From Parabacteroides gordonii MS-1 = DSM 23371 (lineage in GTDB: Bacteria > Bacteroidota > Bacteroidia > Bacteroidales > Tannerellaceae), in the NCBI RefSeq assembly GCF_000969825.1, contig NZ_KQ033919.1, forward strand, positions 3,670,749 through 3,734,748: a DNA stretch of 64,000 bases, written 5' to 3'. Under the pieces are notes generated by a model. That model had not been told where the DNA came from. It was given only the letters and a program-made list of their open reading frames with translations, and ran no database searches. Below are positions 23,056 through 37,650 of this stretch, in pieces; positions within the stretch are counted from its first letter, which is position 1, and every line of letters starts with the position of its first letter. Position numbers and translations under genes: made by a program.

Positions 23056-23622
23056 ATGAAGGGATCGGAAGACATAAAGAAATTAAATCAGCTATTTGAA
23101 GATTATAAAAGCCGCTTTATCAGCTTTGCAAATTCGTATGTGCAAGATTTGACAGTGGCCGAAGACTTTGTAATGGAAGCTTTTATGGATTACTGGGAAG
23201 TGAGGGATATCCTGCGTGAAGACTCCAATATTCCTGCCTATATCCTGACATTGATTAAGCATAAATGCCTGAACCACCTGAAGCGTAAACAGCTTCAGGA
23301 AGATGTATCTCAGCGGATCAGGAATGTGGCCGAATGGGAATTGAACATTCAAATATCTTCCCTGGAAGTCTGTGAACCGACAGAGCTTTTCACCAATGAA
23401 ATAAAAGAAATAGTCAACCGGACTTTGGAGCAGTTGCCGGAACAGACCCGCCGTATTTTCATCATGAGCCGGGTTGCCAACAAAACCCGCAAAGAGATAG
23501 CCGAGGAAATGAATATGACCGCGAAAGGAGTAGAATACCATATCGCTAAAGCATTATCAGCTTTGCGCGTCAATCTCAAGGATTATTATGTGTTGCTTCC
23601 CTTTTTACTCTACCAATTGTGA
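23056..23622 (+). CDS. ECF RNA polymerase sigma factor of a PUL
   Basis: A 188-residue ECF sigma-70 factor. Region 2 covers about residues 10-80 (FISFANSYVQDLTVAEDFVMEAFMDYW, then the KHKCLNHLKRKQ region 2.4 helix). Region 4 covers about 120-175 (LPEQTRRIFIMSRVANKTRKEIAEEMNMTAKGVEYHIAKAL, a helix-turn-helix). It is the Bacteroidetes expansion type, followed by a FecR-like anti-sigma gene 64 bases downstream and an STN-containing SusC. This is the trans-envelope signalling arrangement in which SusC senses a glycan, the anti-sigma factor releases the sigma factor, and the SusC/SusD genes are switched on. The C-terminal LLPFLLYQL tail is short and hydrophobic. Confidence 0.93.
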   Translation: MKGSEDIKKLNQLFEDYKSRFISFANSYVQDLTVAEDFVMEAFMDYWEVRDILREDSNIPAYILTLIKHKCLNHLKRKQLQEDVSQRIRNVAEWELNIQISSLEVCEPTELFTNEIKEIVNRTLEQLPEQTRRIFIMSRVANKTRKEIAEEMNMTAKGVEYHIAKALSALRVNLKDYYVLLPFLLYQL

Positions 23623-23686
23623 CTTTTTCCATTTTTTAACTAGGCACTTCCTTCTCCCGATTTCTATATAGACAGAAACAGGAAAA

Positions 23687-24628
23687 ATGGAAAAAGAATT
23701 ATTACATAAATTTTTTGCCGGAGCGGCTACGCTGGAGGAGAAAGAAGCAATCATGCACTGGATGGAATCAGATCCGGGCAATAAGCAATTTCTTTTGAAA
23801 GAGCGGAAGCTTTATAATGCCGTCTTATTGCATGGGGAGGATAAACAGGTACAGCAACAGGCCGGCAGACAGCAATACTTCCTGCGTCGTGGCGTGGCCC
23901 GGTTCCTGAGAGTTGCCGCAATGATTGTCGTTGCCTTTGGCCTCGGTTACTTCTGGCAATCGGAAAAAACGGAAGGGCCGATCGCTATGCAGACCATATC
24001 GGTTCCGGCCGGTCAATGCGTAAACGTAACTTTGCCTGACGGCAGTAATATCTGGCTGAATGCCCAGACCACTATACAATATCCGGTATCCTTCAATAAG
24101 GAAAACCGTCAGGTTAAGCTGGATGGAGAAGCCTATTTCGACGTTGCAAAAGATTCGAAAAGGCCATTTATCGTTAATACCAAAGAATGTAGTGTCGAGG
24201 TACTGGGTACCAAGTTCAATATAGATGCTTATTCTTCCCGGGATAAATTTGAAACGGTGTTGATGGAAGGAAGTGTAAAGGTCTCGATGCTCGACGATCC
24301 GACACAGGCCGTTTCGCTGAAGCCTAATAATAAGGTATATCGGTCAAACGGGAAGCTACTGACGCAAAAAGTCAGTAACTATGAGCGGTACCGTTGGAAA
24401 GAAGGCCTGATCTGCTTTGTCGACGAGCCTTTCAAAGTGGTTATGGAAGACTTTGAAAAGTTTTATGGCCTGACTATTGTAGTTAACAATCAGAAAGTCA
24501 CTCAATATCTGTATACCGGTAAATTCAAACAAACGGATGGAGTGGATTACGCACTGAGCCTGTTGCAGAAGAATATTCATTTTACCTATCAACGGGATCG
24601 TGAGAATCATATCGTTTATATAAACTGA
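23687..24628 (+). CDS. FecR-family anti-sigma factor
   Basis: A 313-residue single-pass inner-membrane protein. The cytoplasmic N-terminal segment (about 1-63) contains the anti-sigma-like ATLEEKEAIMHWMESDPGN. One membrane helix follows at about 66-85 (FLRVAAMIVVAFGLGYFW). A periplasmic FecR domain covers about 100-200 (VPAGQCVNVTLPDGSNIWLNA, GEAYFDVAKDSKRPFIV). A C-terminal DUF4974-like domain (FKVVMEDFEKFYGLTIVV) contacts the receptor's STN domain. It should hold the upstream ECF sigma factor until the SusC receptor signals. Spacing and order match known Bacteroidetes sigma/anti-sigma/SusC modules. Confidence 0.93.
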   Translation: MEKELLHKFFAGAATLEEKEAIMHWMESDPGNKQFLLKERKLYNAVLLHGEDKQVQQQAGRQQYFLRRGVARFLRVAAMIVVAFGLGYFWQSEKTEGPIAMQTISVPAGQCVNVTLPDGSNIWLNAQTTIQYPVSFNKENRQVKLDGEAYFDVAKDSKRPFIVNTKECSVEVLGTKFNIDAYSSRDKFETVLMEGSVKVSMLDDPTQAVSLKPNNKVYRSNGKLLTQKVSNYERYRWKEGLICFVDEPFKVVMEDFEKFYGLTIVVNNQKVTQYLYTGKFKQTDGVDYALSLLQKNIHFTYQRDRENHIVYIN

Positions 24629-24694
24629 TCCAATTTAGTATTAACCTTTTAATCTTGTTTGCCTATGACATAAAAAATCCTTGTTAACGAAAAT

Positions 24695-24722
24695 GCCGGC
24701 TGATGGTGACGCATCAACCGGC
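24695..24722 (+). promoter_or_regulatory. Intercistronic hairpin between the anti-sigma gene and susC
   Basis: An 11-base stem (GCCGGCTGATG with CATCAACCGGC, one mismatch) closes a 6-base loop, 66 bases after the FecR stop and 52 bases before the SusC start. There is no T tract. It could be an attenuator or a 5' stabiliser for susC mRNA. The sigma-dependent promoter of susC may lie near here, but I cannot identify it. Confidence 0.4.
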
Positions 24723-24774
24723 AAGAATCTATAACACAATTCATTAAATTGTATTACTTTGAAACAACAAATGT

Positions 24775-27700
24775 ATGAAAAAAAATACTTTACAGGGACA
24801 TTATTGCCTAAAAAGTCCCAACCTTAAACAACTATTCAGAATTATGCGAATAACTACATTCCTGTTATTAGTCTGTATATTTTGTTCGTTCGCTTCTACA
24901 ACTCATTCGCAGAATATGCGGGTAAGCATCAGTAAATCCAGTACGCAGTTAAACAAGATATTCTCTGAAATAGAGAAACAGACAGAGTATCTCTTTGTGT
25001 ATAACAACCAGATCGATGTAAATCGTAAAGTTTCCGTAAAAGTAAAGGATAAACAGGTAAGCCAGGTGTTGGACGAATTGTTCGAGGATACGAACATCGA
25101 GTATATGATCCAAGGAAACCATATCGTTTTATCCTCGAAGGAAAATAATATTATCGCACTGCAGCAACAGCAGCAGGCCGGTCGCCGGATATCAGGTGTT
25201 GTGGTCGACGGCAATGGAGAACCCGTTATCGGAGCGAATGTATTGGTAAAAGGCACGACTATCGGGAATATGACAGATGTAGACGGGAAGTTTGCTTTTG
25301 AGATACCGGATAATGCCACATTGGTCGTTTCGTATATCGGTTACTTGTCGCAGGAAATAAGTACCAGGAATAAATCGATTCTAAAGATCACTTTACAGGA
25401 AGATACTCAGAATATTGACGAGATCGTTGTGGTGGGTTACGGTACGATGAAGAAAAGTGACCTGACGGGAGCATCCGGTTCCGTCAAGGAAGATGCCTTG
25501 GCACAACGTACGGTTACCTCTTTCGGACAGGCTTTGTCGGGTAGGGTTTCCGGTGTGAATATCTCCACCAACTCAGGCCGTCCGGGCGGACGCGCTTCTA
25601 TTCGTATCCGTGGTAATTCTTCCATCAGCGTAACGAATGATCCGCTCTATGTTGTGGACGGTGTTATATTGAACGTCAGTACATTGACGAACGGAACTTC
25701 TCCGATCGATTACCTGAACCCGAATGACATCAAATCGGTAGAGGTTTTGAAAGATGCATCTGCAACAGCCATCTACGGTGCACGCGGAGCCAACGGTGTG
25801 ATCCTGATTACCACCAAGAAAGGTGAAGGGATGGGAACAACCATCCGTTACGATACAGACTTCGGTATAGGTGTCCTTCCTAAGAAACTGGATGTCCTAA
25901 ATGCTTCGGAGTTTTTACAACTGGAAGAACTGGCCTATGCCAATGCACAGAAGTTTGATCCTGATGGATGGAAGAATGGCAGTTATAAGGATCCGAAACT
26001 GAAAAGAACCGATCCGAGGTTGTTCGATTCAAACGGCCGGCCGTTGTATGATACCGATTGGCAGGATGAAACGATACGGAATGCCTTCTCCCAGACACAC
26101 CAGATATCTGTGTCCAATACGAAGGGGGGCGATAGCTACGGCCTGTCTGTCGGATTCAGAGGAGAAGACGGTCTGATCATCGAGTCTTATCTGAAACGCT
26201 ATTCCGCCCGTTTCTTTATGGATAGCGAACTGACCAAATGGTTGAAGGTAGGAGGTAGCTTAAGTTACGCTTACCAACAGGAACGCCAGACCGACTCTAT
26301 GGGCGATGGCGGTATAACCGTAGGACGCCAGATAGTAGAGGCGTTGCCTTTCCTGCCGGTTCGCTATGAGGATGGTACTTTCGCCGGAAATAACGATTAT
26401 CCGGGAATGGAAGGTGGCAACAGCCCCGTACAGGTAGCTAAAGACCGTAACTACACCATGGAGACACAGACAATGCTGGGTAATGTGTATGCTAATATTA
26501 CATTGATGCCCGGTCTGGAATTCCGTTCGGTATTAGGTGCTAATATCATTAACCAGAAATCCGGTTACTATGGTGGCCGTCAGCTGATTTGGATCTCTTC
26601 ACCCAATGGTAGCGCTTCTGTTAATAATAATAGAAATAACTCCTGGCAGTTTGAGAACTACCTGACTTATAATAAAGAGTTTGCCCGTATGCATTCGCTG
26701 ACCGGTATGGTCGGCTTGTCCTGGCAGCATGTCGATAACGCATCGGCTACAGCCTCTGCAACAGGTTTCGAAGATGACTTCTTCCAGTATAATAACCTGG
26801 GAATAGGAACTTCTCCTACGGCTGCATCCAATGCGAACGCCTATGGTTTGAACTCTTATTTTGCGCGTGTGAATTACGGCTTTAAAAGTAAATATTTACT
26901 GACGGCAACGGCTCGTCTGGATGGTTCTTCCAAATTCGGCCAGTCGAACAGGTATGCGTTCTTCCCGTCTGTAGGTGCTGCCTGGCGTATCTCTGAAGAA
27001 GCATTCTTAAAACCGGTAACGGCGATCTCCAACATGAAACTGAGAGCCAGTTATGGTTTGACCGGTAACTCGGAAACGGGTGCTTATGCTTCGCAGGGAA
27101 GTTTAGGAAATTACACGACTGTATTCGGTAGTTCCAAAGCTTCCGGTATCGGAGTCTCCTCATTGGCTAACCCGGATTTGAAATGGGAAAAGACTTCTCA
27201 GGTGAATGCTGGGTTGGATATCGGTTTGCTCGATAACCGGATCAACCTGGAAATGGATGTATATTATAAGAAAACGACGGATATGTTGCTGAATGCACCG
27301 GTGCCGGCTTCCAGTGGTTTTACCTCTATCACAAAGAATATCGGTAGTATGAGTAATAAAGGTTTCGAGTTTTCTATCAATACGGTGAATATCCGGAATG
27401 AGAACTTTACATGGGAGTCGACTTTCAATATCTCTTTCAATAAGAACAAGGTCTTGGCATTGAGCGAAGGTGGCGATGATATTTATCCGGGGCCGGACAT
27501 TTTGTCGTCCAGCAATAATATCATCCGTGTAGGTGAACCGGTAGGTTCTTTCTACGGCTACAAACGCCTGGGTACCTGGAGTACGGACGAAGCTGCGGAA
27601 GCCGCTAAATATAACCTTCGCCCGGGTGACCTGAAACTTTGGGACAGGAATAACGACGGACAGATCAATGACCTCGACCGTATGATCATCGGTAAGGGTA

Positions 27701-28200
27701 TTCCCGACGGTTACGGAACATTCTCCAACTCGTTCCGTTATAAAAACTTCGACCTGGTTGTCGACCTGCAATATATGTTTGGCAACGATGTAATGGATAT
27801 CTCTAAACACTCGGCAGAAGACCGTACAGGTATAGCCAACAGCTACAAGACCGTGCTGAATGCCTGGACGCCTGAAAACCAGAATACGATGATTGCCCAG
27901 ATCAGGCCGACCGGTGCTGGATATACAACGAATATCGACTCTCATTTTATAGAAGACGGCTCGTTCCTGCGTGGTAAGAACCTGGTAGTGGGATATACAT
28001 TCCCTTCGGAACTGACCAATAAGTTCTATGTAAAATACCTGAGGATATACGGCAGTGTGCAGAACTTCTTCCTGATCACGAAGTACAATGGTTATGATCC
28101 GGAAGTATCCGATGCCACACAAACCTTTGCCCAGGGTATAACTGTATTCGGTTATCCGAAACCACGTACGTTTACCATCGGGCTGAATGTTAGTTTTTAA
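24775..28200 (+). CDS. SusC/RagA TonB-dependent receptor with STN signalling domain
   Basis: A 1,141-residue outer-membrane importer/transducer. After a signal segment (hydrophobic stretch about 26-42) come an STN/secretin-N domain (about 50-125, with EKQTEYLFVYNN and VSVKVKDKQVSQVLDELF), a carboxypeptidase-regulatory-like domain (about 138-215, ISGVVVDGNGEPVIGANVLVKGT), a TonB box-like DEIVVVGYG, a plug (RIRGNSSISVTNDPLYVVDGV, the SusC signature) and a barrel ending GLNVSF. The STN domain indicates coupling to the FecR/sigma pair just upstream. The SusD partner starts 19 bases downstream. The substrate is presumably a fucosylated glycan, from the GH29 gene in the same unit. Confidence 0.95.
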   Translation: MKKNTLQGHYCLKSPNLKQLFRIMRITTFLLLVCIFCSFASTTHSQNMRVSISKSSTQLNKIFSEIEKQTEYLFVYNNQIDVNRKVSVKVKDKQVSQVLDELFEDTNIEYMIQGNHIVLSSKENNIIALQQQQQAGRRISGVVVDGNGEPVIGANVLVKGTTIGNMTDVDGKFAFEIPDNATLVVSYIGYLSQEISTRNKSILKITLQEDTQNIDEIVVVGYGTMKKSDLTGASGSVKEDALAQRTVTSFGQALSGRVSGVNISTNSGRPGGRASIRIRGNSSISVTNDPLYVVDGVILNVSTLTNGTSPIDYLNPNDIKSVEVLKDASATAIYGARGANGVILITTKKGEGMGTTIRYDTDFGIGVLPKKLDVLNASEFLQLEELAYANAQKFDPDGWKNGSYKDPKLKRTDPRLFDSNGRPLYDTDWQDETIRNAFSQTHQISVSNTKGGDSYGLSVGFRGEDGLIIESYLKRYSARFFMDSELTKWLKVGGSLSYAYQQERQTDSMGDGGITVGRQIVEALPFLPVRYEDGTFAGNNDYPGMEGGNSPVQVAKDRNYTMETQTMLGNVYANITLMPGLEFRSVLGANIINQKSGYYGGRQLIWISSPNGSASVNNNRNNSWQFENYLTYNKEFARMHSLTGMVGLSWQHVDNASATASATGFEDDFFQYNNLGIGTSPTAASNANAYGLNSYFARVNYGFKSKYLLTATARLDGSSKFGQSNRYAFFPSVGAAWRISEEAFLKPVTAISNMKLRASYGLTGNSETGAYASQGSLGNYTTVFGSSKASGIGVSSLANPDLKWEKTSQVNAGLDIGLLDNRINLEMDVYYKKTTDMLLNAPVPASSGFTSITKNIGSMSNKGFEFSINTVNIRNENFTWESTFNISFNKNKVLALSEGGDDIYPGPDILSSSNNIIRVGEPVGSFYGYKRLGTWSTDEAAEAAKYNLRPGDLKLWDRNNDGQINDLDRMIIGKGIPDGYGTFSNSFRYKNFDLVVDLQYMFGNDVMDISKHSAEDRTGIANSYKTVLNAWTPENQNTMIAQIRPTGAGYTTNIDSHFIEDGSFLRGKNLVVGYTFPSELTNKFYVKYLRIYGSVQNFFLITKYNGYDPEVSDATQTFAQGITVFGYPKPRTFTIGLNVSF

Positions 28201-28219
28201 TTCTAAATACGATTAAGTT

Positions 28220-29713
28220 ATGAAAACAAGATATGCACTATTGATAGTATCGCTGGTTCTGGGGTGTAGTAGTTGTACAGACTTTCTGGATGAATCGAAC
28301 CCGTCTAATTTTACCCAGCAGAATTATTTCAGAACGGCAGAACACGCCCGCAGCGTAGTGAATTCGATTTATCAGGATTTAAGATATTCGGCCAATGGCG
28401 ACTATGGCGGTAACCCTTATTTCATGACCGATTTCCAGACCGGACTTGCCGGAACGAAAGTGAGCCAGAATGTCAACATCAATAATATCCGACTGGTGGT
28501 GAATAACTCCGACAACGAATACAGCAAGAGCTGGTGGAACTATACTTACCGTGCAATAGCGAATGCGAATCTGGCAATTACCTATATACCCGGTATCGAA
28601 ATGGATAACAGTACAAAGAAAAAATGTCTGGGTGAGGCTTATTTTCTCCGGGCGTATAACTATTTTAACCTGGTTCGTTTGTTCGGGTCGATACCTTTGG
28701 TTCTGGTACCGGTAGATGCTTCTTCTCCCGAATTATATCCGCAGCAGGCTTCTGTTGAGGAAGTTTATAACCAGATCATCTCCGACTTGAAGGAAGCTGA
28801 AAAATCAGAGTTGCCCTGGGTAGATGAAAGTGGCAAAGTAACAATGGCTACTATTAAGTCCGTGTTGGCAAACGTCTATCTGACAATGGCTGGTTATCCG
28901 TTGGAAAAGGGGAAGGAATATTACTCGCTGGCTGCATCCAAGGCGAAGGAAGTGATAGATAACGGTAGTTACAAGCTGTTTTCTTCCTACGGCGATCTGC
29001 ATAATATTGAAATGGAAAATAAAGGGGAACATCTTTTTATGATCCAATATCAGTCGGGAATAGTGGAAAGTCCGTTCCAAAGCTTATATTTGCCTTATAA
29101 TATGGATATTTCCTACTACTCGACTGAAACAGGTTCGATAGTCGTACTGGATGAATTTATTAATACCTATGAAGAAGGAGATAAGCGGACAGAGGAAGGC
29201 GAATTCTATTATACCCAGTTTACTTCGAATGCGAACAGGGAAGAGATCGTTAAGTTCGGTGCTTATCATATCTTTAAGTTCTTCGATATGGATGCGAACC
29301 TGAATACGGCGAAAAGCAGTTTGAATTATCCGTTGCTTCGTTATGCAGACGTATTATTAATGTATGCTGAAGCACAGAATGAAGCCGATGGAAGTCCTTC
29401 AGCCGATGCATATTCCTGCGTGAACCAGGTGCGGCAGCGGGCAAACCTGAAAGGTCTTAGCGGCTTGTCGCAGGATGAGTTTCGCCAGGCAGTCTGGAAA
29501 GAACGTTATCATGAACTGTCTTTTGAAAATAAGATATGGTTTGATATGGCTCGTACCCGCAAGGTGCTGAATCTGACAACCGGAAAGTTTGATAACTATG
29601 TTGGCCATAAATTCACTTACGGGCCGGCTCTGAGCGAACGGGAACTGTTATTCCCGATCCCGACCAACGAGATCAAGAATAACAAGAACCTGAAACAGAA
29701 TGATGGTTATTGA
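28220..29713 (+). CDS. SusD/RagB glycan-binding lipoprotein
   Basis: A 497-residue surface lipoprotein with lipobox VLGC (C16) and the SusD-family opening CTDFLDESNPSNFTQQNYFRTAEHA. TPR-like helices (GEAYFLRAYNYFNLVRLFG) and the typical C-terminal block YPLLRYADVLLMYAEAQNEA followed by VNQVRQRA and ERYHELSFENKIWFDMARTRK identify it. The end is LFPIPTNEIKNNKNLKQNDGY, the usual SusD finish. It forms the lid of the SusC transporter encoded just upstream and captures glycan at the cell surface. The length is normal and no defect is seen. Confidence 0.95.
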   Translation: MKTRYALLIVSLVLGCSSCTDFLDESNPSNFTQQNYFRTAEHARSVVNSIYQDLRYSANGDYGGNPYFMTDFQTGLAGTKVSQNVNINNIRLVVNNSDNEYSKSWWNYTYRAIANANLAITYIPGIEMDNSTKKKCLGEAYFLRAYNYFNLVRLFGSIPLVLVPVDASSPELYPQQASVEEVYNQIISDLKEAEKSELPWVDESGKVTMATIKSVLANVYLTMAGYPLEKGKEYYSLAASKAKEVIDNGSYKLFSSYGDLHNIEMENKGEHLFMIQYQSGIVESPFQSLYLPYNMDISYYSTETGSIVVLDEFINTYEEGDKRTEEGEFYYTQFTSNANREEIVKFGAYHIFKFFDMDANLNTAKSSLNYPLLRYADVLLMYAEAQNEADGSPSADAYSCVNQVRQRANLKGLSGLSQDEFRQAVWKERYHELSFENKIWFDMARTRKVLNLTTGKFDNYVGHKFTYGPALSERELLFPIPTNEIKNNKNLKQNDGY

Positions 29714-29742
29714 AATAACGATTATTCAGTAAAATAAAAAGG

Positions 29743-29782
29743 TATATTTGCCGGTTGACTTTTCGGAGAAACCGGCAAATAT
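29743..29782 (+). promoter_or_regulatory. 13-bp perfect hairpin before the fucosidase gene
   Basis: ATATTTGCCGGTT (29744-29756) is the exact reverse complement of 29770-29782 across a 13-base loop. Its left arm overlaps a TATATTTG -7 match (29743-29750). It sits between susD and the GH29 gene and may reduce read-through, protect the upstream mRNA, or belong to a secondary promoter. Confidence 0.45.
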
Positions 29783-29799
29783 TTTAATAAGGAACAGTT

Positions 29800-31206
29800 A
29801 TGAGAAAAAATGTATCTATTCTTTTGTGTCTCGCTTTTTTATGCAGTCTGGCAGTGCAGGGATTAAAAGCACAACCGACAAGTGGAATTTCGGATTTAAA
29901 GACTTTGCAGCAGCAGTTTGTCGACCTGAAGTTCGGTATGTTTATCCACTTCAATATCCCTACGTTTATGGATGACGACTGGGCGGATCCGGAAGCGAGT
30001 CCGGCCATTTTCAATCCGGTGAAGCTGGATTGCGGGCAGTGGGCCAAAGCTGCGAAAGCCGCTAAGATGCGTTACGGATGCCTGACGACCAAACATCATA
30101 GTGGTTTCTGTATCTGGGATACGAAAACGACCGGTTATAATGTGATGAATAGTCCGCTCAAACGTGATGTCGTAAAAGAATATACCGAAGCATTCCGTAA
30201 GGAAGGACTGAAAACGATGCTTTATTATTCCATACTCGATACCCATCATAAACTGCGTCCCGGCTTTATCACTAAAGCCCATGTCGAAATGGTCAAAGAG
30301 CAGTTAACGGAACTTCTTACCAACTATGGGGAGATAACTGCAATCATCATTGATGGCTGGGACGCTCCCTGGTCGCGTATCTCCTATGAGACAATACCGT
30401 TTGAGGAAGTGTACCGGTTGATAAAAAGACTTCAGCCCAATTGCCTGGTGATGGATCTGAATGCCGCCAAGTATCCGAAGGATGCCTTGTTCTACACAGA
30501 TATAAAATCGTATGAGCAGAATGCCGGACAACATATTTCAAAAGAGACGAACCAACTACCCGCTTTATCTTGCTTACCGATCAATAAGAGCTGGTTCTGG
30601 AAAGAAAACTTTCCGGTATCGCCTGTAAAAGATCCCGTTACGATTGTAAAGGATAATCTGGAACCATTCAATCAGGCTTATTGCAATTTTATATTGAATG
30701 TGGCTCCTAACCGTGACGGCCTGATCGATCCGAATGCTGTTGAGGGATTGAAGAAAATCGGAGAACTCTGGAAAGACGATGTAGCCGTACCCCAACTTCC
30801 GGCTTATGATGCCCCAATAATTGCAACGAATATAGCCAAAGGTAAACCGGCTAATTCCAGTTGGAGTGAGGATATGTGGATTATGGATTTTGGAAATGAC
30901 GATGATTTTACAACCAGTTGGCGGTCGAACAAGGCTGTAGCAACCCCCTGGTTGGAAGTGGATCTGGATAAATGCCATTCTTTCAATATGATAACAATAA
31001 CCGATCTTCAGGGAAGTATACAACGGTATCGCTTATTATATGAAACGGATGGTATCTGGAAAGAGATCTGTTCGGGAGATAAGGCTGATAAAGTTAAAGT
31101 GCATCGTTTTGACCGTGTTTGGGGAAACAAAGTCAAAATAGAAATAGAGAACACCAATGGGCAGGCTTCAATTGCTGAGTTCGGGGTGTATGATGAACAA
31201 CGCTAA
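29800..31206 (+). CDS. Secreted GH29 alpha-L-fucosidase with C-terminal discoidin-like domain
   Basis: A 468-residue protein with a signal peptide (about 1-25, ending LKA-QP). GH29 hallmarks are FGMFIHF, YGCLTTKHHSGFCIWDT (the substrate-pocket His pair), NSPLKRDVVKE, and the nucleophile region AIIIDGWD (likely D185). NFILNVAPNRDGLI is the usual end of the catalytic domain. Residues about 335-468 form an F5/8-type C (discoidin) beta-sandwich (IAKGKPANSSW, FTTSWRSN, PWLEVDLD). It removes terminal alpha-L-fucose from glycans in the periplasm or at the surface. It is the only enzyme in this locus, so the PUL may target fucosylated host O-glycans or an oligosaccharide processed by others. Linkage specificity is unknown. 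Confidence 0.9.
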   Translation: MRKNVSILLCLAFLCSLAVQGLKAQPTSGISDLKTLQQQFVDLKFGMFIHFNIPTFMDDDWADPEASPAIFNPVKLDCGQWAKAAKAAKMRYGCLTTKHHSGFCIWDTKTTGYNVMNSPLKRDVVKEYTEAFRKEGLKTMLYYSILDTHHKLRPGFITKAHVEMVKEQLTELLTNYGEITAIIIDGWDAPWSRISYETIPFEEVYRLIKRLQPNCLVMDLNAAKYPKDALFYTDIKSYEQNAGQHISKETNQLPALSCLPINKSWFWKENFPVSPVKDPVTIVKDNLEPFNQAYCNFILNVAPNRDGLIDPNAVEGLKKIGELWKDDVAVPQLPAYDAPIIATNIAKGKPANSSWSEDMWIMDFGNDDDFTTSWRSNKAVATPWLEVDLDKCHSFNMITITDLQGSIQRYRLLYETDGIWKEICSGDKADKVKVHRFDRVWGNKVKIEIENTNGQASIAEFGVYDEQR

Positions 31207-31313: not shown

Positions 31314-33035
31314 TTATCTAACCATCTTATAATAAGTTTTCTTAGCCCAGAAGAGGTTGGTGTAATAACCACTTGGCTCTTCATAGTTTTTAGCGATAGC
31401 TGCCTGGCAGTTTTCGCTGTTGTAAGTCAACTCATCGTTTGGATAAGGCAAACGGTTAGGAGGAGTAGGGAAACCAGATACCTGGTTATCTGTTGCAAAT
31501 TCAACTACAGGATAACCTGTACGGCGTACTACGTTCCATGCTTCCAGCTTGTTCATGAAGCCGAAGTTCAGCCATAACTGCGTGCAGATAACCTCCTGGG
31601 TCGGTTTCCAGATGCTTTCGGCGTAGGCTGCAATAGCATCGTTTGTTGGTCTAACCAATGGACGGAATCCTCTGTAGCTATCGTTGCCTTCTTTATGAAG
31701 CGAGCTGGTTTCCTTCATGTCCCAATAGTATTCGGTAGACTGTTTCACTCCTTCAATGAAGTTTGCTTTCGCCTTGTTGGCATCGGTACTCACGCCATAT
31801 CCCATCAAATAAGCTTCGGCTTTGCTGAAACTTACTTCGGCTGCACTTAACCATAGGCCGAATATGTTTTCGTTTCCTTGATATGTAGCCCAACCGGCGG
31901 CAGCGATTGTGTCGATTTCACAGAAATAATTGGCTTGTGTCATACCTCTTTCTACATACTCTTTCTGTTTTTGGTCTTTCAAGGTTGTGATTTCAGCCTC
32001 GGTCATCATGACATCATAAGCGATGTATTGTCCATCGGGGTTGCAATCGTACATAACTTCCAGACGTGGGTCGGTATTTTCGTCAGGTAAACCGTTTGTC
32101 GGCAAGTTCATAGCATCCAGAATAGTCTGTGAACAAGCAGCCATACCACCTGAGCGAAGCGCTTGTGAGAAACTTTTACCGAAATTGAAATCGTCCTTCT
32201 GGGTATTGGCTGTCACACCCATATTTTCCGTATTGTTGTCAATCAGCGGATACTGTCCCGGATTGTTCAGGATTTCGGCAATGGCAGCATGGGCTTCTGC
32301 TGTGCAATCGCCGGCAGTAGACAAATGAAGAGCAATACGCAGACGGAGTGAGTTGACATATTTGCGCCATAATGTAGCATCACCGGCCGCGATCGTGTAG
32401 TCTTGACGGCTTAATGAGGTAAGACCAATCTGGTTTACATTGCCACTGGCAAAATAGTCGCCGACTTCTTTCAGGTCGACAAGGATCTGCTTATAAAGTG
32501 CTACATCGTCATCATAAACGCATTTTTCTTTGGCTGCATTGTAATCGCCATCTCTCCAAAGTGTACCTGCACCGTTGAAAGGTACATCTCCGAATATGGA
32601 CAACATTTCATGTAATTGTGATTCAACCAGTGTGCGACCCAGATAATAGAATACAATGTTTGAGGGCTTTTCTGTTTCGGAAAGATTTTCATAAGTATAT
32701 TCTAACAAACGCTGTTGGGTTAGCATATCGTAAAATTCTTTCCAACGATCATTGTAACGTCCTTCACCGGAACCCATATAGCGAGCACGCGAATTGGTTG
32801 TACCGATAACTCCGGAGAACAGACCTGAGGTGGTTGATTGTACCCAATGACGATAATAAATCGGGTTCATCCAGGTGTTCCCTTTAAACATTACGGCGGT
32901 AAATACCTGAGGTACACCTACTGTTGTTGTTTGAGAAGGATCTGCGTACTTATCATCATACGCTGAATCGGCGCATGATGAGGCAAGCGATACTAGTGCG
33001 ATTCCTCCTGCTAACAATGAAAATATCTTTTTCAT
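31314..33035 (-). CDS. SusD-like lipoprotein of the second SusC/SusD pair
   Basis: A 573-residue lipoprotein with lipobox SLASSC (C21) followed by ADSAYDDKYADPSQ. The sequence is of the divergent SusD-like group: MNPIYYRHWVQSTTSGLFSG near the N-terminus, YYLGRTLVESQLHEMLSIFGDVPFNGAG, then LWLSAAEVSFSKAEAYLMG. It ends with RLPYPNDELTYNSENCQAAI and a tail without the standard SusD finish. It lies 37 bases downstream of a SusC gene and surely forms a complex with it. No glycosidase or sigma factor accompanies the pair, so the ligand cannot be inferred; peptide or amino-sugar ligands are also possible for this group. Confidence 0.88.
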   Translation of the reverse strand: MKKIFSLLAGGIALVSLASSCADSAYDDKYADPSQTTTVGVPQVFTAVMFKGNTWMNPIYYRHWVQSTTSGLFSGVIGTTNSRARYMGSGEGRYNDRWKEFYDMLTQQRLLEYTYENLSETEKPSNIVFYYLGRTLVESQLHEMLSIFGDVPFNGAGTLWRDGDYNAAKEKCVYDDDVALYKQILVDLKEVGDYFASGNVNQIGLTSLSRQDYTIAAGDATLWRKYVNSLRLRIALHLSTAGDCTAEAHAAIAEILNNPGQYPLIDNNTENMGVTANTQKDDFNFGKSFSQALRSGGMAACSQTILDAMNLPTNGLPDENTDPRLEVMYDCNPDGQYIAYDVMMTEAEITTLKDQKQKEYVERGMTQANYFCEIDTIAAAGWATYQGNENIFGLWLSAAEVSFSKAEAYLMGYGVSTDANKAKANFIEGVKQSTEYYWDMKETSSLHKEGNDSYRGFRPLVRPTNDAIAAYAESIWKPTQEVICTQLWLNFGFMNKLEAWNVVRRTGYPVVEFATDNQVSGFPTPPNRLPYPNDELTYNSENCQAAIAKNYEEPSGYYTNLFWAKKTYYKMVR

Positions 33036-33072: not shown

Positions 33073-36000
33073 TTAGAAGTTTGCACGAACAGAGAAACCG
33101 AATGTGCGTGCACTGGCCGTTGAACCGCCTAATTGTGCCTGATAAATCCAGTTTGTACCGTCTGTTGTTTCAGAGTCGAACAATTTTAATGTGCGATATA
33201 CATAGAACGGGTTACGTACGAAAGCTGAAACCATCAGGTTATTGCAAGCAAACTTCTTGGTCAAGTCTTTCGGCAGTGTATAACCCAGGCTGATTTCACG
33301 ACATTTGATGTAGCTGTTCTTTTGGATAGCATCCTGATAACTCATGCTGGCGCCTGTACCCCAACCATATTGGCTGACGTTTGCTTCCATTTGAGTTACA
33401 ATGATGTCGTTTGGTGTGCCGTCTTCTTTTACACCCGGCAAGATCAAACCGTTGTCCCAAACATAGTGACCGTTTATCATCGTTTCACCTCGTTTGTAGT
33501 TGCTTACTTCACTTGGGTTAACGATATGGATAGAACCTTTGTCGTCCATTTTTTCTGTGTCGCAGTAGTAGAATAAACCTCCTGTGGAATGGTCGCGAAC
33601 ACCTACGGCGTCGGTAATATTACCTACAGCCATCATGTATTGCCAAGGTGTGTTCAATACATCGCCACCAAAACGGAAGTCGAAGGCCATATCCAAAGTA
33701 AAGTTCTTATAGCTTAAACTTGTACCGAAACCTCCGGTAACTTTTGGCATGGCGTTACCTACTTTGTGACGTTCGGATGTATCGGTTATATACAAACCGT
33801 TGCTGCCTACGATGTAATTGCCGTTTTCGTCTGTTTTCCAAGTATAAGTATACCAGTCACCCATAGATTCGCCTACATGTGATTCAAGCGAGGCTGCACC
33901 ACCATCAATATCCGAGTGATTTAATACATCCAAACCATCAGCTAACTTTTTTACTGTATTTTTGTTCCAAGCTACATTTGCACGCAGATCCCATTTCCAA
34001 TCTTTGTTTTCAATAGGAGTACCGTATACGCTAAATTCAACACCCTTGTTGCTCAACTCACCTACATTCATCAACATGCTCTGTGCACCCATAGAAGCGG
34101 CACTGGTCGTTTGAAGAATCTGGTCTTTGATGGTATTGCTATAGAAGTTGAATTCCATGCCTAAGCGGTTTCCAAAGAATTTGTTTTCCAAACCGATTTC
34201 AAATTCATACTTGGTTTCCGGCTTGATACTTTCATTACCGATACTCTTATCAATGTAATTATAACTGTAAGTAGATCCTCTCAGCAATGATTCTTGTTTG
34301 AATGCCAAAACGGCGCGATAAAGTTCAGGGGCATTACCTACAATACCATAAGAAGCGCGTACTTTACCATAGTTCCACCAAGTTGGCATTTGGTCTTTAA
34401 GTAATTCCGTATAGAGTACGCTGGCGCTGGCAGAAGGATACCAGAATGAATTGTTGCCTTTCTTCAGGGTAGAGGTCTTTTCCTGGCGGATAGAACCTTC
34501 CAGAAATCCCCAGCCGTTGTAGCCGTAGCTGGCAGTCAGGAAAGCACCTGTTTTAAGCAAATCTTGTTTGGTCATACTTGCATTCTTTGTGCCGACAGAG
34601 GCGTTCAAGTGGAACCAGTTTTCTTGTGTCAGACCTTGGCTGGTGCTAACATCCGATTTGTAATAAGATTCCTGGCGAGCTGTCCAACCTAGGTTGGCTG
34701 TTACATTATGAAGCTCATTGAATGTTCTATCGAACATCAACATCACATCGCTATAAACAATCTGGTAGCGGCTGTTATTTAATCCATAAGAGTCGCTATA
34801 CTGACCGTTGGTAGAGAATACATGTGCGTTTTCTGCACGGTTTTTGTTTTCAATCTTGTCAACAGTCAAGTCGGCTGCTACACGACCGTTCAATGTTAAT
34901 CCAGGGATGATTTCCCAAGTCGGGTTGACTGCACCGATGAAACGCTGGTGTTCTTCCAACTGTTCTTTACCCATAATGTTCCAGAAGTATTCACTCATTA
35001 ATGAGGTAGATCCCATTGGGGTATAAAGGAATTGTTCGTCTGGTGTTAATGTATCGCTTGTTCCACCGTTATACGATGATGTGCTGTTTTGATAACCAAG
35101 GCTTGTTACTGTATGGTCGCGTATGTAAGCAACATCGGTGAAGCCACCGAACATACCACTGAAGTTGTTGGTTAAACGGCTGATACGATACGGGCGGTTC
35201 TTAATGAACTGGTTCTGATAAGTGGCCGTGTAGTTCAACTTGATGGTATTGGTTACATTGAATGTTCCGTTTAAGTTGAAATTATGCTTATGGTTGTTAG
35301 AGTTGAGCTGCATAGCTTTTACATCGTTGTAAGTGTATGAGAAACGTACGTTGTTTTTCTCGGAACTGTTGGTCAACGATAGGTTGTAAGTTTGGTTTAC
35401 ACCGGTACGGAAGATATCTGCCCATTGGTTGTTGTCAATCGGTGCGAATGCACGCTGTGTACCGTCAAAGTAAGTAACCATTTTGCTGGGATCATATTTA
35501 GCCCCCCACGAATAATAAGTTTCACGGTTCGGCGTAACAATTGCGTTACCGTTGCGGTCTACACGTAACTGACGGAAACCAGTTAAAGCTTCTTGACTAT
35601 CGTTTCCTAATTGTGAGTTATCGTAACCCGGACCGTATTCCTTTTGTATTTCAGGCATATAAGCCACTTTGTCGAAACTTACATTTGCACTGAAGTCAAT
35701 CTGAGTACCTGAACCGGCTTTAGCTTTTTTGGTAGTAATCATCACAACACCGTTGGCAGCTTCCGATCCGTACAGGGCAGAAGCGGCAGCTCCTTTCAGG
35801 ATAGAGATGTTTTCGACATCTTCGGGGTTGATATCTACCATACCGTTGGAGTTGATACGCTGGTTACCCCAGTAACCATCATTGTTGGTGTTACTGTTGT
35901 GAAGAGGTACACCGTCCATGATGATCAGCGGTTGAGTATTACCCGTGATAGAAGAAAGACCACGAACGGAGATAGATACCGCTGATGTACCGCCACCAGG

Positions 36001-36513
36001 AGCAGCCTGAATACGTACACCGGTAGCTTTACCGTAAAGTCCGGTTGCAATGTTTGAACCGCCAGTTCTGGTTAATTCTTCAGATGATACATTACTTACG
36101 GCATAACCTAATTTCTTGGCATCTTTCTTGATACCCAAAGCTGTTACGACAACTTCGTCCAGCTTCTGAGTGTCTTCTGCTAGTTTAATGTTTAATGAAG
36201 ATTGGCCAGTGTAGGTGACTTCCTGAGTAGCATATCCGATAAAAGAAATCTGGATAATGTCTCCCTTTTTTACTCCTTCCAGGTTGAATTTACCATCCAT
36301 ATCGGTAATACTACCGTGAGTGGTTCCTTTGATCACTACTGATGCTCCGGCAACAGGTCCGAAATCATCTTCTACAACACCGCTTACTTTACCACTTTGT
36401 TGGGTAATAGCAGTTTCGTGCTTTTCTGGCGCTAAGTCTGCATATACACTTGTAGGAAGTGTTATTGCTCCTGCGACAAGAATTAAGCTGACAGGTTTGA
36501 AGTGTTTCAACAT
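33073..36513 (-). CDS. SusC/RagA TonB-dependent receptor of the second pair
   Basis: A 1,146-residue outer-membrane transporter: signal peptide about 1-25 (ending VYA-DL), carboxypeptidase-regulatory-like domain (about 42-115, VSGVVEDDFGPVAGASVVIKGT), TonB box KLDEVVVTALG, plug with VSISVRGLSSITGNTQPLIIMDGVP, and a barrel ending GFSVRANF. There is no STN domain, so it cannot signal through a FecR/sigma pair. Expression is more likely set by the upstream region, which carries AGTTC-N5-GAACT inverted repeats typical of invertible promoters. Its SusD partner follows after 37 bases. Compared with the other SusC in this window, its plug/barrel sequence is quite divergent. Confidence 0.94.
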   Translation of the reverse strand: MLKHFKPVSLILVAGAITLPTSVYADLAPEKHETAITQQSGKVSGVVEDDFGPVAGASVVIKGTTHGSITDMDGKFNLEGVKKGDIIQISFIGYATQEVTYTGQSSLNIKLAEDTQKLDEVVVTALGIKKDAKKLGYAVSNVSSEELTRTGGSNIATGLYGKATGVRIQAAPGGGTSAVSISVRGLSSITGNTQPLIIMDGVPLHNSNTNNDGYWGNQRINSNGMVDINPEDVENISILKGAAASALYGSEAANGVVMITTKKAKAGSGTQIDFSANVSFDKVAYMPEIQKEYGPGYDNSQLGNDSQEALTGFRQLRVDRNGNAIVTPNRETYYSWGAKYDPSKMVTYFDGTQRAFAPIDNNQWADIFRTGVNQTYNLSLTNSSEKNNVRFSYTYNDVKAMQLNSNNHKHNFNLNGTFNVTNTIKLNYTATYQNQFIKNRPYRISRLTNNFSGMFGGFTDVAYIRDHTVTSLGYQNSTSSYNGGTSDTLTPDEQFLYTPMGSTSLMSEYFWNIMGKEQLEEHQRFIGAVNPTWEIIPGLTLNGRVAADLTVDKIENKNRAENAHVFSTNGQYSDSYGLNNSRYQIVYSDVMLMFDRTFNELHNVTANLGWTARQESYYKSDVSTSQGLTQENWFHLNASVGTKNASMTKQDLLKTGAFLTASYGYNGWGFLEGSIRQEKTSTLKKGNNSFWYPSASASVLYTELLKDQMPTWWNYGKVRASYGIVGNAPELYRAVLAFKQESLLRGSTYSYNYIDKSIGNESIKPETKYEFEIGLENKFFGNRLGMEFNFYSNTIKDQILQTTSAASMGAQSMLMNVGELSNKGVEFSVYGTPIENKDWKWDLRANVAWNKNTVKKLADGLDVLNHSDIDGGAASLESHVGESMGDWYTYTWKTDENGNYIVGSNGLYITDTSERHKVGNAMPKVTGGFGTSLSYKNFTLDMAFDFRFGGDVLNTPWQYMMAVGNITDAVGVRDHSTGGLFYYCDTEKMDDKGSIHIVNPSEVSNYKRGETMINGHYVWDNGLILPGVKEDGTPNDIIVTQMEANVSQYGWGTGASMSYQDAIQKNSYIKCREISLGYTLPKDLTKKFACNNLMVSAFVRNPFYVYRTLKLFDSETTDGTNWIYQAQLGGSTASARTFGFSVRANF

Positions 36514-37125
36514 AATTAATGAGTTTATTGATAATAATACTAGTGTTAGTGGAGTTGCTTTAGATTTGACGTTTATTGATGTTTTTGATCTTAGTTCTAA
36601 AAGAACTATGGTGTGATGTAAGCAGAAAACATCTAATTATCAATAGTATTCTATTGGTTAAGTAAGGTTAAAAGCTTTTTTTTATAACATTGGTTCATAT
36701 GAATTACTTTCTGTTTATCTATCTGGCATTAATAAATATTGTTTAATATGAATAGGAGGATATTACGATTAACATACAAATTTATAATGATATCAAAATG
36801 TACAATATGAATATAATCAAAGGATAAGATTTGTAGTCAGATTGAATGCTGATTATTTTCTTTGTTATTGTTGAAGTTGTTAAAAACAAAGCATAATATA
36901 TCTTTTTTTGACGTAAAATAACAGTGTTTGATAATTTATTAATATATTTGCGCCGGATATTTAGTACGGAGTTCTTTTAGAACTATGGCTTTTTTTAGGG
37001 TTATGTATCTTCTTTTTTATAAAAAAACAATAAGTAGGATGTGGTAGAGAAATTGTAATACGGAAAATAAGAAGGACGAAATATTTCGTCCCCTAATTGT
37101 CAATTGATAGATAAAAAGATGGAAG
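36514..37125. promoter_or_regulatory. Putative invertible promoter region upstream of the second susC
   Basis: This 612-base AT-rich interval has no gene. The sites AGTTCTAAAAGAACT (36593-36607) and AGTTCTTTTAGAACT (36970-36984) are exact 15-base inverted copies of each other, 362 bases apart. A consensus -7 box, TATATTTG (36943-36950), points away from susC in this orientation, 19 bases inside the right repeat. Inversion would place it at about 36627-36634, pointing at susC about 115 bases from its ATG. A weaker leftward candidate (CAAATTTA, 36777-36784) also exists. The promoter may therefore be captured in the OFF state. Confidence 0.65.
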
Positions 37126-37650
37126 TTAACGATTGTTTTCTTTGTAAATTTCAATTGCTTTCTTTATTGATATCAATCCGAAGTCATCCGCTTTCAGCTC
37201 TTCCTCTTTCAAAATAACAATTTCAGCTGCATCGTCTTCTGCATGAGCGTTGTTGAAGTTTTCTACATGGCATTCGAAAAACATATCTATCGTGTGTACT
37301 TCAAAACCGCAATATGGATAAAGGTTAGGAATAGAAAACAGGTAACAGCATTCGGTGATATCCAGTCCTGTTTCTTCTTTCACTTCGCGATGTGCTGCTT
37401 CTTCAGCCGATTCATGCATGTCGACAAAACCTCCCGGCAAATCGAGTGTTCCTTTGGCCGGATCCTTCGCACGACGTACCAATAAAACTTCCCCGGCTGC
37501 GTTACGGATAAAACAGGCTACTGCCGATGAGGGGTTAAAATAATAGACGAAACCGCAAGTGGTACACATTTTGGCCTTCTCGTTACGTTCGACGAATGTT
37601 TTGGCACCACATTTCGGACAATAGATAAACTGATGTAAAGGATGACTCAT
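37126..37650 (-). CDS. NUDIX hydrolase with N-terminal zinc ribbon
   Basis: A 174-residue cytoplasmic enzyme. Residues 11-33 form a zinc ribbon (CPKCG ... CTTCG). The NUDIX box GGFVDMHESAEEAAHREVKEETGL fits GX5EX7REUXEEXGU exactly. The combination of zinc ribbon and NUDIX domain recalls NADH pyrophosphatase NudC, but it lacks the SQPWPFPxS motif, so a general NUDIX pyrophosphohydrolase acting on NDP-X is the safer call. It lies downstream of rokA (same strand), separated from it by a terminator-like hairpin, so it may be transcribed separately. Confidence 0.88.
   Translation of the reverse strand: MSHPLHQFIYCPKCGAKTFVERNEKAKMCTTCGFVYYFNPSSAVACFIRNAAGEVLLVRRAKDPAKGTLDLPGGFVDMHESAEEAAHREVKEETGLDITECCYLFSIPNLYPYCGFEVHTIDMFFECHVENFNNAHAEDDAAEIVILKEEELKADDFGLISIKKAIEIYKENNR

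Follow-up and report, generated by a model that had tools for sequence, protein, structure and literature searches.

A probable invertible promoter upstream of a susC/susD pair in Parabacteroides gordonii and a candidate recombinase acting in trans

Could the short intergenic segment upstream of a susC/susD pair in P. gordonii MS-1 = DSM 23371 be an invertible promoter, and which enzyme would then flip it? Being surface proteins, the susC/susD importers can come into contact with phages and with the immune system. The window, i.e. the whole stretch of 64,000 nucleotides that was analysed, comes from a genome (G000) of 6.79 Mb in 8 contigs that is 99.9% complete and is close to P. goldsteinii and P. 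massiliensis, with SusC of the window sharing 89% and 92% identity with its counterparts in the two species, respectively. We consider it very probable (about 0.87) that window positions 36592-36985 constitute an invertible promoter for susC/susD, which is OFF as assembled and is flipped in trans by a tyrosine recombinase.

Repeats and promoter boxes in front of susC

The features of the locus are as follows (window coordinates).

31314..33035, minus strand: SusD-like outer-membrane lipoprotein, 573 aa (SusD-like_2, SusD-like); ORF intact, 37 nt after susC
33073..36513, minus strand: SusC-like TonB-dependent outer-membrane transporter, 1146 aa (Plug, CarbopepD_reg_2); ORF intact
36514..36592, minus strand: susC leader, 79 nt, from the start codon to the 15-nt proximal repeat
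36592..36607, no strand: susC-proximal inverted repeat, TAGTTCTAAAAGAACT; half-sites AGTTCT/AGAACT, asymmetric 3-nt core AAA
36608..36969, no strand: predicted invertible segment, 362 nt; no listed ORF of at least 100 aa, promoter end kept in orthologs
36777..36784, minus strand: second perfect TAnnTTTG, TAAATTTG; faces susC in the assembled orientation
36900..36985, plus strand: promoter module, similar to the module of a susC/susD shufflon in the same genome and to orthologs in other Parabacteroides
36943-36950, plus strand: TATATTTG, putative -7 promoter box (TAnnTTTG); points away from susC as assembled
36970..36985, no strand: distal inverted repeat, AGTTCTTTTAGAACTA; core TTT
37072..37093, minus strand: terminator-like hairpin after the NUDIX gene, 9 pairs, T-rich tail on the minus strand
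37126..37650, minus strand: NUDIX hydrolase gene, its 3' end toward the segment at 37126

The original prediction had placed exact 15-base inverted copies 79 bases from the SusC start, and both statements held: AGTTCTAAAAGAACT was found at 36593-36607 and AGTTCTTTTAGAACT at 36970-36984, with 79 nt between the susC ORF start (36513, minus strand) and the 15-nt proximal repeat. The match reaches 16 nt, giving perfect inverted repeats at 36592-36607 and 36970-36985 that are 100% complementary, with arms 362 nt apart and an AT-rich interval between them. Each repeat is itself a near-palindrome of the form AGTTCT-NNN-AGAACT. When one mismatch was allowed, the repeat motif occurred in just 2 places in the window, while shuffles gave a mean of 0.16 and none of 100 contained two.

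The direction and spacing of TATATTTG were likewise as predicted (plus strand, away from susC, 19 nt from the right, distal repeat); its description as the only perfect TAnnTTTG in the interval proved wrong, as TAAATTTG also lies there. This second box is probably a chance occurrence, since the 800 nt upstream of susC at the P. goldsteinii (L066) and P. massiliensis (L087) loci contain no TAnnTTTG directed at susC and since the motif is common (4 found versus 3.2 expected in 3 kb); it could in principle give some susC expression, a reservation that applies to the word OFF. Taken alone, the placement of TATATTTG (p ~0.024 in shuffles of the window segment) is weak evidence, and its weight is drawn from the site family described below. 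No -33 TTTG stands at its usual spacing before the -7 box TATATTTG, where the upstream TTTGs sit 12 and 32 nt before the box, and the -33 TTTG was treated as an optional element of the inverton class and not as a defining one. A sigma-70 scan revealed no excess (4 found versus 5.0 expected). As would be expected of an inverton, the locus comprises an intergenic segment with a predicted promoter between inverted repeats, adjoining a gene start, and within this segment an outward-reading TAnnTTTG -7 box (TATATTTG).

In the proposed mechanism, a tyrosine recombinase acting in trans would synapse the two AGTTCT-NNN-AGAACT sites, cut and rejoin them by exchanging strands in their asymmetric core (AAA in one repeat, TTT in its partner), and thereby invert the 362-nt segment. 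In the assembled state, the promoter beside the distal repeat would read toward the 3' end of the NUDIX gene, transcribing antisense to it, and the susC and susD genes, presumed to be co-transcribed, would be OFF, an assignment that follows from the direction of the module. In the inverted state, the promoter would stand beside the proximal repeat and read through it into the 79-nt leader, turning susC/susD ON.

A family of related sites and a shufflon with the same core

Searching the whole genome for AGTTCTNNNAGAACT yielded 20 exact sites versus 0 for a reversed-pattern control, and the wider form AGTTC-N5-GAACT gave 54 versus 2. Both window sites also fit AGTYYYN4GDACT, which we take to be the site consensus of Tsr0667 of Bacteroides fragilis (BF0667 presumably being the gene name), and, as in that system, the repeats are short and inverted and each contains a dyad AGT...ACT site. 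This consensus was tried as a stand-alone search motif and discarded as too loose (83/76 versus 60/51 for the control), its enrichment being mild (83 versus 60) next to the strong one of the strict form (20 versus 0).

Among the loci examined, 18 exact inverted pairs of the AGTTC-N5-GAACT form lie less than 3 kb apart; they were selected as exact inverted copies and include the window pair and one shufflon pair (loci L158-L173, L017 and the window). An outward TAnnTTTG was found 12-22 nt inside one repeat in 11/18 pairs, the window among them, and an inward one in 0/18, the placement being absent in 7/18; in 1000 rounds of dinucleotide shuffling, the outward box was found in a mean of 0.32 pairs and a maximum of 3. 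A SusC-like gene is among the three nearest ORFs (at least 110 aa) on one side of eleven of the 18 pairs, a different eleven from those with the TAnnTTTG. Further pairs appear once the half-sites may vary, e.g. C1:276481/276698 and C1:328678/328832. The 5-nt core is exactly complementary within each pair and mostly differs between pairs: there are 15 distinct cores, of which 12 are used by a single pair and three are common to two pairs. With 15 distinct cores in 18 pairs and a match within each pair, the cores look like addresses that keep the switches apart. A subset of the invertons (L160-L163, L172 and L173) has segments of 216-271 nt, and 5/6 of these (not L163) are without a SusC-like gene among their nearest ORFs; this subset may be a second class.

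The same genome holds a susC/susD shufflon on contigs C2 and C3 in addition to 17 simple inverted pairs with such sites, the window pair included. Five more copies of the exact window site, core included, are located at the starts of C2 and C3, where the sites surround four susC genes, each then followed by a SusD-like ORF (C2:1-12112, C3:1-13170; L016, L017), the SusD-like assignments resting on BLAST similarity to one another and to the SusD of the window. Window positions 36900-36985 share 80.7% identity over 88 aligned positions with the shufflon promoter module at C3:80-167, and a stretch of 47-55 nt made up of the start-codon end of the window leader and the first susC codons is similar (80-84%) to where the shufflon susC genes begin. 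The first 80 nt of contig C3 match the leader of the susC at C3:8020 in 80/80 nt, the contig ending there. Across the site, the two copies differ, with the promoter module at C3:81 and a different sequence at C3:7875, and the 34 nt that open contig C2 are the end of the same module placed before yet another susC. One leader with two left flanks, interrupted precisely at the site where a contig also ends, would be expected of a shufflon active in the sequenced culture, and the assembly break suggests that several configurations were present; alternatively, it could reflect a true duplication of the C3 leader at an unresolved repeat.

The shufflons of two related genomes, G037 and G012, likewise place a single module between a divergent pair of susC genes. 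The impression that it faces opposite ways in G037 versus G012 was rejected, as the contigs are mirrored and the faced susC genes are related (84%). Our susC at C2:171, which is faced by the module here, is 94% identical to a G037 susC that the module does not face, and the module-faced susC differs between the two genomes. What these data add to the known picture is that a simple inverton and a shufflon use the same core and have a common promoter module, along with the core-address hypothesis. Since all 15 nt of the site, its core (AAA/TTT) among them, are the same in the window inverton and the shufflon, and since their promoter modules are homologous, recombination between the two is conceivable; it is a rather improbable further step that both form one recombination network, in which megabase inversions could swap the expressed susC between loci and the cores would be the address code for which switches recombine.

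A candidate recombinase encoded elsewhere in the genome

The original prediction called for a tyrosine recombinase elsewhere in the genome, and a plausible unlinked candidate was indeed found on contig C4. The genome contains 66 Phage_integrase matches. The enzymes of the genome were compared with those of two site-rich genomes, G014 and G006, a comparison that took in 70 own loci and not every one of the 66 matches, and clear full-length orthologs in both were seen only for XerC, XerD, L156 and the following gene.

G000 C4:85995-87155 (L304:9396-10556): tyrosine recombinase, 387 aa, with arm-binding, SAM-like and catalytic domains

The R...HxxR...H...Y residues of this recombinase are readable from the DNA, and it is the sole match at its threshold in its own genome. 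Full-length orthologs are present in 18/38 genomes of the genus, partial matches in 7 genomes being counted as absent. Genomes with an ortholog (18) have a mean of 7.6 AGTTCTNNNAGAACT sites versus 0.8 in those without (20), the reversed-pattern control giving 1.3 versus 1.1, and at least 3 sites occur in 12/18 versus 1/20 genomes; the association of enzyme and sites has p = 7e-5, a significance that is overstated because the genomes are related. Exceptions occur in both directions: the fragmented genome G021 has 10 sites and no 387-aa ortholog at the threshold used, holding another recombinase, and there are 0 AGTTCTNNNAGAACT sites in G005, G017 and G025, all of which possess the ortholog, with G005 and G017 carrying other AGTTC-N5-GAACT sites beside it. 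Near the enzyme, G005, G004 and G017 (0 or 1 AGTTCTNNNAGAACT sites each) carry the variants AGTTCATACAGAACT and AGTTCTGAATGAACT, which would fit a site and an enzyme diverging together.

Furthermore, a site of the class was found in 15/16 counted neighbourhoods of the enzyme (within ~10 kb of the gene, in regions of ~15-20 kb), compared with 14% of shuffles of five neighbourhoods, and 9/16 contain an exact inverted pair, frequently where a susC-like match begins or close to that point. The neighbourhood in G023 has the ortholog and no site of the class. Of 19 ortholog neighbourhoods, 16 entered the count; the other three, from G019 and G025 (short contigs) and from G028 (partial ortholog), contain no AGTTC-N5-GAACT site and no exact pair. 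In P. gordonii itself, only one site lies beside the 387-aa gene, and it has no inverted partner. In G090, a genome of another family with 0 AGTTCTNNNAGAACT sites, the enzyme (55%) lies directly beside a susC whose start region has AGTCTTTGCGGAACT. In an order-wide survey of 158 genomes spread evenly over the families, the 387-aa enzyme was present in 3/158, with mostly 0-1 sites per genome.

On these grounds, the 387-aa enzyme at C4 is quite likely to be the recombinase of the window inverton and is the foremost candidate; it would also serve the C2/C3 shufflon and many or all of the ~20 other invertons, possibly as a Tsr0667-like master invertase. It is also possible, though unlikely, that the segment is invertible and is flipped by one of fourteen tyrosine recombinases of 304-351 aa (groups A-C, or L142, L145, L149, L144). 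These fourteen paralogs are among the 66 Phage_integrase matches, the three that were scanned have SAM-like and catalytic domains, and several invertases may serve the AGTTC-N5-GAACT set. However, for all 60 matches on C1-C3 the nearest known AGTTC-N5-GAACT site is more than 17 kb away (53/54 sites used), and, among the own enzymes compared, clear full-length orthologs in both G014 and G006 were limited to XerC, XerD, L156 and the 387-aa gene. L145 (341 aa), the one of the fourteen that was searched individually across the genus, was rejected because its distribution does not follow the sites: it is 70-71% identical in only two other species and at most 55% in the other genomes listed. Near one recombinase (C1:3416142) the loose motif is present, with a background rate close to the control.

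Two other candidates were set aside, namely L156 (195 aa), which has a full-length ortholog in G014 and G006 and yet occurs in 5/38 genomes only, and a cluster of ~402-aa enzymes (at least 52% identity, 13 genomes), which has no member among the own proteins compared. NCBIfam gave only below-cut-off matches for ten candidates, mostly XerC/XerD-like. A trio of tyrosine recombinase genes occurs in four identical-scoring copies (C1:3110006-3112509, C2:507340-509843, C2:1783321-1785824 and C3:106243-108746) and is probably a mobile element.

Orientation in relatives, alternative readings and known systems

A comparison of orientation with other strains had been proposed as a check; among five orthologous loci that have both repeats, both orientations of the module are present. 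The module points away from susC in 4/5, i.e. in the window, P. goldsteinii (L066), G037 and P. massiliensis (L087), and toward susC in 1/5, in Parabacteroides sp. RGIG9024 (L065), where TACATTTG is in place. L066 is identical to L110 of G012 over 3,824 nt and L087 matches L111 of G013. RGIG9024 is a metagenome-assembled genome in which the interior of the segment is strongly diverged; its 80-nt end beside susC, compared with the promoter end of the 362-nt segment, gives a score of 43, and 1000 simple shuffles of it reach at most 32. Both orientations of the inverton thus occur in nature, as a difference between species only. In P. goldsteinii (L066/L110), the proximal repeat reads AGTACTTTTAGAACT, with one mismatch and an AGTACT half-site, which may impair recombination and lock the switch with the module facing away from susC. 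The upstream scan took in 12/43 homolog loci, of which 3 have the repeats (L066 with one mismatched copy), 5 lack them over 810 nt and 4 offer ~150 nt or less. The five without repeats, out of eight susC homologs that could be assessed, are the more distant ones (66-74% identity), and no AGTTC-N5-GAACT was found in their upstream 810 nt.

The proposal of a phase-variable locus of the B. fragilis SusC/SusD type is supported by the site family, the outward boxes in 11/18 pairs, the shufflon module with an identical core, the orientations in orthologs and the candidate recombinase. Another reading of the locus, which we consider improbable, is that of a relic, an inverton once active and now fixed OFF, with susC/susD silent or driven by the second TAnnTTTG. 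The common orientation of 4/5 orthologs and the mutated proximal site of P. goldsteinii would agree with a relic, but both sites of the window are perfect, the promoter module and intact susC/susD are kept, and the shufflon with the same site has two junctions for one leader in the assembly. It is very improbable that the repeats serve as operators, bound by a dimeric regulator of susC, and not in recombination: their 6-nt dyad half-sites around a 3-nt centre, in front of a transporter gene, would suit an operator, whereas across the 18 pairs, which were selected as exact inverted copies, the 5-nt centre mostly varies between pairs and is complementary within each pair, as a crossover site needs and an operator does not, and both the module orientation, which differs between orthologs, and the flanks that switch at the shufflon site argue in the same direction. 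Chance repeats in AT-rich DNA, a reading for which the AT-rich interval and the lone TAnnTTTG placement (p ~0.024) could be cited, are refuted by the 20 exact sites in the genome versus 0 in the control and by four other species that have the repeats in the corresponding position, a single copy in one of these species carrying a mismatch.

As an invertible promoter, the window locus adds a further case to a known class, the B. fragilis Tsr0667-type invertons and shufflons. Tsr0667 is reported to be in control of shufflon-type inversions at three SusC/SusD clusters, and of nine further regions (PMC4747536, PMC11852207); as described there, the recombinase acts in trans, a single enzyme serving both simple invertons and susC/susD shufflons far apart, and we propose likewise here. 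The present case differs in its genus and in that recombination is deduced from sequence; the 387-aa enzyme would be a possible counterpart of Tsr0667. In the intergenic shufflon of Region EE of B. fragilis NCTC 9343, an invertible promoter is followed by inverted repeats that overlap the susC/ragA starts (PMC5729914). The C2/C3 shufflon and the susC genes that neighbour the 387-aa recombinase resemble that arrangement, whereas the window locus is one susC/susD pair with a simple two-site inverton.

Invertons of gut Bacteroidales found with PhaseFinder are reported to have a promoter between inverted repeats (PMC8748976, PMC10939037) and to be often near SusC/SusD genes (PMC10939037); those were recognised from reads in both orientations, while the window inverton is read from sequence and comparison. 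The Mpi (serine) and Tsr19/BF2766 (tyrosine) invertons, described in PMC4747536 for B. fragilis capsule/exopolysaccharide loci, share the ON/OFF switching by promoter inversion and differ in their recombinases and target genes. Within the genus, invertible regions have been reported in P. distasonis (PMC5903667, PMC10773633), and for P. goldsteinii PMC8748976 lists resistance genes whose promoters are invertible. Among the matches listed from the open-licence literature, there was no paper on the window locus or on a SusC/SusD shufflon in its species. Of note here are a candidate recombinase with a conserved susC neighbourhood and a list of its probable targets; a gut Parabacteroides would join the bacteria whose susC/susD importers appear to be bet-hedged by one unlinked recombinase.

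Elsewhere in the window, at 23056-31206, a separate locus of conventional type encodes a sigma-70-family (ECF-like) factor, a FecR-like protein, a susC/susD pair and an alpha-L-fucosidase with an F5/8 type C domain.
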